A DNA stretch of 22,805 nucleotides, taken from positions 1 through 22,805 of the IMG/VR virus record IMGVR_UViG_3300007640_000257; one strand, given 5' to 3'. The first letter of the stretch is position 1; each line of letters starts with the position of its first letter. Shown here piece by piece: positions 18,838-22,538 of the stretch. Under the pieces are notes generated by a model, which was not told where the DNA came from, searched no databases, and saw only the letters and a list, made by a program, of their open reading frames with translations. The translations under genes were made by a program, and so were the position numbers. Source of the stretch: a virus.

Positions 18838-19359
18838 TTACTTTTTTTTATTATTTTTCTGATCCCACTTTTCGTTGATCTCTTTTAATATATTATTAAT
18901 CTTAACATTAATCAATTGATGGCTTACATTAAGTTGTCTTGCGATAGCTCTTTGGCTAAACCCATACTTTTCCCTTTTCTTATCCCAAGTTAAATAATGT
19001 AATTCGAATAACTTTATATCACTTGGTCTAAGATGTAACACAACTCTTTTTATGAAGTCCATCTTCTTTGTATTCTTAATGTCTATTTCCATATGATCAA
19101 TTTCCTCCTCTTCACTATCATCTAATTGATCTATTACATATTCATTATCTACTATCTTATTACGACCACAATTTTTTCGGTGTAGATTTCTTAATGAAAT
19201 AAATATATAACTATCAGTGATCTTTTCATAAGGGATTTGCCATTTAGTCATATTGACTAATAATGTGTGTAAAAGATCACCACCTTCATCTCGACTAGAG
19301 ATAACATATGCCATATTCAACCAACGATTATAGTCTGCTTTCTCTACTCTCTCGATCAT
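18838..19359 (-). CDS. Sigma-70-like transcription factor
   Basis: A 173-residue protein. Residues ~10-60 resemble sigma region 2: a DLLHTLLVNM helix, then ITDSYIFISLRNLHRKN. A very acidic linker follows (DDSEEEEIDHMEID). Residues ~115-160 resemble region 4 with a helix-turn-helix: LFELHYLTWDKKREKYGFSQ, then RAIARQLNVSHQLINVKINN. Such small sigma-like proteins in Bacteroidetes phages are thought to turn on late genes by directing host RNA polymerase. The three repeated elements upstream of virion genes are natural candidate targets, but recognition is inferred. Its ATG overlaps the end of the 53-residue gene upstream. Confidence 0.6.
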   Translation of the reverse strand: MIERVEKADYNRWLNMAYVISSRDEGGDLLHTLLVNMTKWQIPYEKITDSYIFISLRNLHRKNCGRNKIVDNEYVIDQLDDSEEEEIDHMEIDIKNTKKMDFIKRVVLHLRPSDIKLFELHYLTWDKKREKYGFSQRAIARQLNVSHQLINVKINNILKEINEKWDQKNNKKK

Positions 19360-20616: not shown

Positions 20617-21816
20617 CTATCCTATATTAACTTGTGTTTTTATTCCTAGCTTAGTAAAGTATTTTTCTATTTCTTTATAAATCTGACCACAATCTTCTAT
20701 ATCACTAAAATAGATACTATCAAATAATGTGAAGTAATACTTACTTTTCTTCGGAACTAAATTATTAAATAACTTTGCTTCTATATTCTGCAATCTCGAT
20801 GCTAGTGATATATCTGTTTTGTAGATTTTATCCAACGAATCCCAAGTAGTCGGGAATAATTCTTTAAATTTTTTATTATAAAGGCTTTGTTTATTAAATC
20901 CGAAATATACATTCTTATATAATCCTACTTTAATATCTTGTCGATCATCCTCTTCTTTAACTAAATTAAATTCCTCATAGAATATTCCTGACTCACAAAC
21001 ATATTTATAACTCTGATCATAATCAAATTCATTTTCTTTTAAATATGCTACTAATAATAATGGTTGGCAATTAGTTATATCAACGTAGTTAAAATTAACT
21101 GATAAGTGTTTCCTTGCGATCTTTGATAAGTTGGTAAAGCTGTGGTATATTCTATCTACTTTATTTCCTTTCTTTATAAATCTTCTGGATTTTAAATAGA
21201 ATATTTTACTTATCCTTGATCTTAATCTATGAGAACTGGATCCTTTCTTTAAATAATCATTTAATTCAGCCTCAATAGCGTTCTTTGTATTTATCTCTAT
21301 ATTCTCAATTGTGTTTTTAAATCTATCAGTAACATCTACATCTTTATCACAAGTAAATTCCCTTACATATTTTTTACGGGGTTCTTCTAATATAACTAAA
21401 CACAATTCTTTTTCTTCGAAATACTGATCGTGTATTCTATACTTCTTTACTATCTTCTTATCTTTATCATACCAAGTCCCATCTTTATATGGTACATTAG
21501 TTAATACCTTTAAATCTTTAAGGATCTTTTTATAACTATAATAATGATCTGTCCCAAAAAACTTAATAAACACACTTCTACTTAATAATTGCTCTCTCTC
21601 GTTTTCTATGTCTCTATTTTCTAAATACCTTAAAAATGATAATACATTCTTTAAGAATATTCTTCTATTCTTAATTGGTATATCCACAGTCAACAATTCA
21701 CTAATTAAGTGTATGTCAGTTACGAATAGTAAATTTCCAAATGCGAATGACTTAATACTTTCTTTTGTTAAGTCATCCCCAAACATTTTTTCTTCTAATT
21801 TTATAATTTCTATCAT
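20617..21816 (-). CDS. Divergent palm-type polymerase-like protein
   Basis: A 399-residue protein if started at ATG 21814-21816 (MIEIIKLEEKMFGDDLTKES). A longer frame from 21912 exists, but its extra part encodes a tandem 11-bp repeat that looks regulatory. Numbered from the short start, the second half has RIYHSFTNL (222-230), VDITNCQP (245-252, like motif A with Asp), KVGLYKNVYFGFN (296-308, like motif B with Lys and the aromatic-Gly pair) and TLFDSIYF (363-370, like the DS of motif C). This order is seen in family A DNA polymerases and single-subunit RNA polymerases, and in a poorly studied group in phages and plasmids. The first 200 residues look helical and unmatched. Whether it makes DNA or RNA cannot be told; replication is the best guess. 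Confidence 0.5.
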   Translation of the reverse strand: MIEIIKLEEKMFGDDLTKESIKSFAFGNLLFVTDIHLISELLTVDIPIKNRRIFLKNVLSFLRYLENRDIENEREQLLSRSVFIKFFGTDHYYSYKKILKDLKVLTNVPYKDGTWYDKDKKIVKKYRIHDQYFEEKELCLVILEEPRKKYVREFTCDKDVDVTDRFKNTIENIEINTKNAIEAELNDYLKKGSSSHRLRSRISKIFYLKSRRFIKKGNKVDRIYHSFTNLSKIARKHLSVNFNYVDITNCQPLLLVAYLKENEFDYDQSYKYVCESGIFYEEFNLVKEEDDRQDIKVGLYKNVYFGFNKQSLYNKKFKELFPTTWDSLDKIYKTDISLASRLQNIEAKLFNNLVPKKSKYYFTLFDSIYFSDIEDCGQIYKEIEKYFTKLGIKTQVNIG

Positions 21817-21880
21817 AATGTATATATAAAAATTATCTTCTCCCTGAGGGGTTATTTCAATATATTTTAAAAAAACTTTC

Positions 21881-21902
21881 AAAATGTCGAAAAAATGTCG
21901 AA
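21881..21902. repeat. Tandem 11-bp direct repeat, likely operator
   Basis: AAAATGTCGAA occurs twice without a gap (21881-21891 and 21892-21902). The 11-bp period is about one helical turn, as for paired protein sites. It lies 65-86 bases upstream of the chosen polymerase-like start. Confidence 0.6.
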
Positions 21903-21909
21903 AAACGAG

Positions 21910-21920
21910 CACTAATAGTG
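21910..21920. repeat. Small inverted repeat CACTA-A-TAGTG
   Basis: Two 5-base arms around one base form a perfect inverted repeat eight bases beyond the tandem repeats. A dimeric regulator, such as the rightward RHH-like protein, could bind it; this is inference only. Confidence 0.4.
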
Positions 21921-21971
21921 TTACCTCTGTTCCCTCTCTATTATATTATAATTCCGTTGAAAAACTTAACT

Positions 21972-22126
21972 GAAAAACCACCAATAGCGAGTTAGTGGTT
22001 CTTCATACCTACCCGATTGGGTGGTCGTAATTAACGGTCCTAAGCGTTAATTCTTAATGTCCTATTATATATCAATATCAATATTCACATTCCTGATCAC
22101 GACCCTTTGGGGGAGTGGATCAGACC
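21972..22126 (-). ncRNA. Candidate structured RNA / 5' leader with four hairpins
   Basis: The divergent spacer (21817-22271) has no gene but holds four hairpins in a row. On the minus strand in order: a CTGATC/GATCAG stem with inner AC/GT and CCC/GGG pairs (22093-22123); AATTAACG/CGTTAATT, 8 bp (22029-22052); ACCACCC with GGGT-GGT and one bulge (22007-22025); and a 13-bp stem starting GAAGAACCAC (21972-22004) whose last arm ends in TTTTTC. In the last stem two pairs are G-U on the minus strand but would be A-C mismatches on the plus strand; the first stem gains a G-U pair the same way. This favours an RNA read leftward and ending, or pausing, before the polymerase-like gene. A TATAAT box lies at 22141-22146. 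A replication origin is the main alternative. Confidence 0.5.
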
Positions 22127-22271
22127 TATAAGTAAAATCTATTATAACACATCTCAACTATAAGAAAGAAATATAGAAATAATTACTAAAAACACTAAAC
22201 AAAGCGTATCTTTATTTATATATAATATATATAATATACAGAGTACATAAAAAATAACTTTAAAATAAATT

Positions 22272-22538
22272 ATGAAAAAAAGTTCAAAAAAATTTACAAC
22301 TTTACGAGTAACAGAAGAGACTCAATCTATGGTTGAACAATTAAAAATATTGGTTTCTATGCGAGATCGTACATCATATACAACGGATGATGCTCTTAAT
22401 CTCTATCTAAGAGAGGGTTTAGATGATATTGAGATGAAAATACAAGTAGGTGGATTCTCGTGGAGAGATGCCTTTGACCAAGAAAATAAAGCAACAGAGG
22501 AATTACAAAAAAGAATAGATTTAGAAAATGGAAAATAA
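22272..22538 (+). CDS. Small ribbon-helix-helix-like protein
   Basis: An 88-residue protein, the first rightward gene, starting MKKSSKKFTTLRVTEETQSM. The basic start, a strand FTTLRV, then TEETQSMVEQLKILVSMRD and a second helix (TTDDALNLYLREGLDD) resemble a ribbon-helix-helix DNA binder. The remainder is charged and unmatched. It overlaps the next gene by 11 bases and lies behind an AT-rich stretch with TATAAT boxes (~22220-22240), which may be the rightward promoter. A regulator of the divergent spacer is plausible but not shown. Confidence 0.5.
   Translation: MKKSSKKFTTLRVTEETQSMVEQLKILVSMRDRTSYTTDDALNLYLREGLDDIEMKIQVGGFSWRDAFDQENKATEELQKRIDLENGK

Follow-up and report, generated by a model that had tools for sequence, protein, structure and literature searches.

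A compact cluster of hairpins lies in the spacer ahead of a minimal family-A polymerase gene, and as our preferred though tentative explanation it would constitute a minus-strand non-coding RNA/terminator element of about 170 nt within the control or origin region of that polymerase. The window, i.e. the whole stretch of DNA that was analysed, is the entire 22.8-kb (22,805 nt) IMG/VR virus record IMGVR_UViG_3300007640_000257, the topology of which is classed as linear and the phage terminase of which finds its best match in Flavobacterium phage 11b (55 % identity). An AT-rich spacer of 455 bp separates the leftward polymerase-like gene (ATG at 21816) from a rightward ORF of 88 aa that starts at 22272. 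Four clear hairpins (H1-H4) and a weak fifth were located between 21971 and 22124, all inside this spacer (Table 1). The original prediction had described four gene-free hairpins packed into ~155 bases, and this description holds, as the ORF list of the window contains no ORF of at least 50 aa within 21913-22271 and the hairpins are more stable than shuffled sequence on both strands.

Table 1 Coordinates of features in and around the polymerase spacer (window positions; fold energies in kcal/mol)
Feature	Position	Strand	Remarks
Polymerase gene (399 aa)	20617..21816	-	Probable winged-helix N-terminus; family-A polymerase domain, residues 158-399
Promoter-like AGGGAG-N12-TATATA	21820..21845	-	Directly before polymerase ATG
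Tandem AAAATGTCGAA, two copies	21881..21902	+	Between 26-bp motif and promoter-like site
26-bp motif ACACTATTAGTGCTCGTTTTTCGACA	21896..21921	-	Recurs in the relatives' polymerase spacers; iteron or operator candidate
Proposed non-coding transcript	21960..22134	-	H4 through H1 plus T-run; both ends putative
H1	21971..22005	-	14-bp stem, 7-nt loop, then T-rich on minus strand; terminator-like
H2	22007..22027	no preference	GC-rich; minus strand reads ACCACCC-AATC-GGGTAGGT
H3	22028..22053	neutral	Perfect palindromic 8-bp stem, AATTAACG-GTCCTAAG-CGTTAATT
Weak AT-rich hairpin	22055..22091	unassigned	Between H3 and H4; plus -1.2, minus -3.9
H4	22091..22124	unassigned	CTGATC...GATCAG stem with internal loop, GA/GA (plus) or UC/UC (minus)
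Extended -10-like site TGTTATAAT	22141..22149	-	Perfect consensus match, just upstream of H4
Divergent ORF (88 aa)	22272..22538	+	No family match

The hairpin cluster is real and goes beyond chance. Folding of both strands against dinucleotide shuffles, which had been proposed as a check, gave z-scores of -2.68 for the plus strand as RNA (equalled by 4 of 200 shuffles) and -3.23 for the minus strand (equalled by 1 of 200), and the fold computed with DNA parameters reached -4.17 with none of 200 shuffles equalling it. When the window was tiled into 147 pieces of 155 nt, no tile on the plus strand and a single tile on the minus strand folded as well or better.

Within the window alone, the strand is fixed by H1 only, since the whole 155 nt gives the same result on both strands (z of -2.87 and -2.98) and the remaining hairpins are either neutral (H2, plus -8.8 and minus -8.4 kcal/mol; H3, plus -6.4 and minus -5.5) or, as with H4 (plus -15.8 versus minus -13.2), slightly in favour of the plus strand. 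H1 folds with -15.6 kcal/mol on the minus strand versus -9.6 on the plus, where its two minus-strand G-U pairs become A-C. The argument that G-U pairs mark the minus strand therefore stands for H1, finds H2 and H3 indifferent and fails for H4. The claim that the last stem runs into Ts on the minus strand was confirmed; a stable stem-loop followed by a T-run was found on that strand only. H1 shares this stem-loop and 3' T-rich run with intrinsic (Rho-independent) terminators, however its main T-run is inside the stem, only 4 of its pairs are GC and it is located in a divergent spacer rather than after a gene.

A plus-strand structure, serving as 5' leader of the rightward operon from 22272, is very improbable. 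H4 and H3 do fold slightly better on that strand, where the internal loop of H4 would be a tandem G-A loop, but H1 is much worse there, and in the related locus L011 the promoter-like motif also lies close to the divergent gene, which would leave the hairpins outside that mRNA. None of the Rfam covariance models matched the window at gathering score; the S4-Flavobacteria model stayed far below its threshold (16.7 versus 35.2 bits) with a different pairing and was rejected as a chance match.

The proposed transcript (22134-21960, minus strand) folds with -51.4 kcal/mol and a z-score of -3.57 that no shuffle equals. The TGTTATAAT site is a weak candidate for its promoter, because seven sites of this type are present in the window versus 3.9 expected by chance. 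This extended -10-like type is not known as one favoured by Bacteroidota RNA polymerase; a search of the spacer for TAnnTTTG, the -7 consensus of Bacteroidota, found no exact match. A leftward RNA ending before the polymerase, as originally suggested, is nevertheless the best-fitting reading when H1, the TGTTATAAT site, the z-score of the span and the sense-strand structures and terminators of the relatives (see below) are taken together. The structure, the terminator-like H1, the shared motifs and, in the relatives, the recurrence of strong hairpins at this position and their sense-strand tendency are seen in the sequences, whereas we infer the production, ends and function of such an RNA: it would start near 22134, fold as H4-H3-H2-H1 and stop at H1 and the T-run that follows, ahead of the 26-bp motif and the promoter-like site. 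Its most likely job would be to end leftward transcription before these two elements, leaving polymerase expression and the start of replication to be set by their own signals, and the short RNA itself may modulate or prime initiation.

The original prediction had also offered that the RNA might be a leader controlling the polymerase. Such a 5' UTR of the polymerase mRNA, acting by attenuation or as a riboregulator, would agree with the sense-strand position of the hairpins upstream of the gene and with the terminator-like last stem, yet we consider it improbable, given the promoter-like motif that relatives share directly before the ATG and downstream of the hairpins; no Rfam riboswitch or leader matched either. 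As its placement suggests, the AGGGAG...TATATA motif is probably the promoter of the polymerase, and if so, the hairpins are upstream of the polymerase mRNA and outside its leader. Most phage relatives have this motif ahead of the polymerase; it also stands before other genes, the divergent one of L011 among them, and AGGGAG...TATATA possibly represents a phage-specific promoter. At many genes of the related loci, AGGGAG-N11-TATATA recurs as a gene-start signal some 20 nt ahead of the start codon. A weakly sigma-like protein is encoded at 18838-19359 of the window.

A small antisense or origin RNA had also been put forward at the outset. An origin RNA is conceivable; an antisense RNA of the OOP type was discarded, as there is no ORF of at least 50 aa opposite the hairpins. 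The nearest published parallel is nonetheless lambda pO/OOP near ori-lambda, where a short structured RNA ending at a terminator of its own is encoded next to the replication genes and the origin, and where the promoter affects replication (PMC3985674). The likeness is in layout only: OOP is antisense to cII, whereas the window hairpins have no gene opposite, and both their transcript and its promoter are putative.

The gene that the spacer precedes is a minimal family-A polymerase, as judged from the palm fold of its predicted structure together with motifs A, B and C, which bears out the earlier 'polymerase-like' call. The 399-aa protein has no Pfam and no PHROG match, however its predicted structure (mean pLDDT 88) superimposes over residues 158-399 on Pol theta (Z 14.6, rmsd 3.4, 229 residues), and motifs A (DITNCQP), B (R...K...Y) and C (FDS) are kept across a 26-member alignment. 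Foldseek matches include Taq and Aquifex-type pol I; virophage proteins and one phage protein annotated 'putative DNA polymerase I' were matched as well. The fold of 158-399 and motifs A/B/C are thus shared with family-A polymerases (Pol theta, T7 pol, Taq) and with the polymerase domains of virophage replication proteins; in contrast to the family-A polymerases, the window protein is only ~400 aa long and has no exonuclease domain, with a probable N-terminal winged helix in its place. A separate prediction for the N-terminal 166 residues (pLDDT 80) shows the order helix-strand-helix-helix-strand-strand, and winged-helix proteins are frequent among its matches at Z 5-6.7, a plasmid replication initiator (Z 5.6) being one of them. 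On these weak scores, which are below the level for claiming a fold, the N-terminus is probably a winged helix. Distant relatives of the polymerase occur in the huge phages LR756504 and LR756501; in the isolate-phage collection, no polymerase match was found beyond such uncultured huge phages.

A single-sequence protein scan found no relatives of the polymerase, and the same was true for the 88-aa ORF. Scans with protein alignments, however, detected polymerase orthologues, those of uncultured phages with 32-49 % identity and others in the genomes of Flavobacterium and other Bacteroidota; the relatives of the terminase were without this polymerase in the DNA scanned. The window and 19 relatives carrying the polymerase (Flavobacteriia/Bacteroidota phages, prophages and MAGs) make up the set of 20 loci considered here. 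Most phage-type loci have the polymerase as the gene directly following a divergent spacer 350-800 bp long. In L058 (Flavobacterium urumqiense), a Cro/C1-type HTH protein is encoded on the divergent side, so that the spacer is located where a lysis-lysogeny control region would be.

Among these relatives, structure and position are kept and sequence is not. Most of the spacers exceed their shuffles in structure, and when whole loci were tiled in 80-nt pieces on the polymerase-sense strand, the most stable tile fell in the spacer in 8 of the 20 loci versus 1.2 expected (P = 7.5e-6; 9e-7 after removal of near-duplicates; both values overstate independence, as the relatives share ancestry). In 15 of the 20 loci, which are of shared descent, folding is better on the polymerase-sense strand than on the complementary one (Wilcoxon p = 0.006 on z, 0.013 without near-duplicates); in L062 the stem has many G-U pairs, and owing to these its energy is -34.1 on the sense versus -16.5 on the antisense strand. 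In the spacers, 19 terminator-like sites were found in the polymerase sense versus ~4.5 expected, and 10 in the antisense versus ~5.9 expected, all of these being hand-summed figures in which few loci dominate: the excess is mainly due to L015, L016, L064 and L057, and the one site of the window is H1. The gene upstream of the polymerase is co-oriented with it in L060 and L062, and the hairpin there could therefore be an ordinary 3' end.

Judged by the refuting condition given at the outset, which included a lack of covariation or conservation in relatives, the result is mixed: position and structuredness are kept and the hairpin sequence is not. The hairpin sequences of the window could not be aligned to any relative, RNAalifold gave no supported structure for the hairpins of four relatives, and neither a DNA search of phage records with the spacer nor an exact-pattern scan with the H3 sequence returned a meaningful match. 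As these sequences are not conserved and no relative is close enough for an alignment of the window stems, the stems offer no countable base-pair covariation. Such lineage-specific sequences, along with the little structure beyond shuffles seen in L060, L063 and some MAG loci, are what would be expected if the hairpins had no function and were inverted repeats of a fast-evolving AT-rich spacer, conspicuous through a GC content higher than that of their surroundings. The fold z-scores and the recurrence of structure at the same position argue against this account, which we regard as rather improbable.

The region between the hairpins and the polymerase gene holds a further shared element. A model of a 26-bp motif (consensus ATACTATTTGTTTACATTTTTTGCAT) was built from L013 and L060-L063 with the window left out; it recovered the motif on the polymerase-sense strand of the window, at 21896-21921 (p = 0.003), and the motif is also present in L058 and L012. 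Scores of at least 17 are confined to polymerase spacers. There is one copy in the window and 2-3 in L060-L063, and in L060 and L062 the copies form direct pairs 42 bp apart. A near-perfect palindrome of 106 nt (-53.6 kcal/mol) is found at 3646-3751 of L012, with an inverted pair of the motif as its arms.

These elements bring in a close rival to the transcript, namely a replication origin at the DNA level, in which the hairpins would act as DNA, by extrusion or single-strand initiation, beside a motif bound by the winged helix of the polymerase, any RNA being incidental. It draws on the DNA-parameter fold, which gave the strongest of the z-scores, on the specificity of the 26-bp motif for polymerase spacers and its direct and inverted pairs in relatives, on the weak resemblance of the polymerase N-terminus to winged-helix proteins including the replication initiator, and on the inverted pairs of GC hairpins found in L051, L052 and L056. 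The polymerase-sense bias and G-U-reliant stems of the relatives, however, fit an RNA or one single strand rather than a symmetric cruciform, and the window has but a single copy of the motif; on balance an origin of this kind appears possible but unlikely. With iteron-type origins, the window shares an AT-rich spacer, hairpins and an adjoining gene for a probable DNA-binding polymerase, as well as a motif that is repeated in relatives; yet the gene is that of a polymerase and not a classic Rep, and since iteron origins have several copies of their motif and the window has one, membership in this class is not claimed. GC skew was rejected as evidence of an origin: it flips at the spacer in divergent loci and not in L060 and L062, and hence follows gene direction.

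The tentatively preferred minus-strand RNA and the DNA-level origin both concern a spacer that, with its shared 26-bp motif, promoter-like element and structure kept without sequence, forms a compact candidate origin/control region. This polymerase family has no Pfam family, and a search of the literature on origins and promoters of Flavobacterium phages yielded nothing usable. If the transcript exists, it would be a phage regulatory RNA invisible to sequence-based RNA searches. A bolder version, to which we give little credence, is that a short, fast-evolving polymerase-sense RNA beside the 26-bp motif sets or primes the start of replication, which would make it an undescribed type of phage origin that retains structure and position rather than sequence, used by those Bacteroidota phages whose family-A polymerase has a winged helix.

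A few minor observations were also made. Within H3, 13 nt (22032-22044, TAACGGTCCTAAG) are identical to a universal region of 23S rRNA near the I-CeuI site; this likeness is treated as chance, because 13 of 500 shuffled spacers match E. coli 16S/23S equally well. Upstream of the polymerase in L051, L052 and L056, the two GC-rich hairpins are oppositely oriented, ~240 bp apart and retain their pairing despite changes on both sides; L052 and L056 have an integrase-like ORF upstream. Related divergent proteins of 195 aa (TTQQKFYEKSL...DKLPTTYDYKTWMTPA), that of L015 having no Pfam match, are encoded in L015, L016 and L064.
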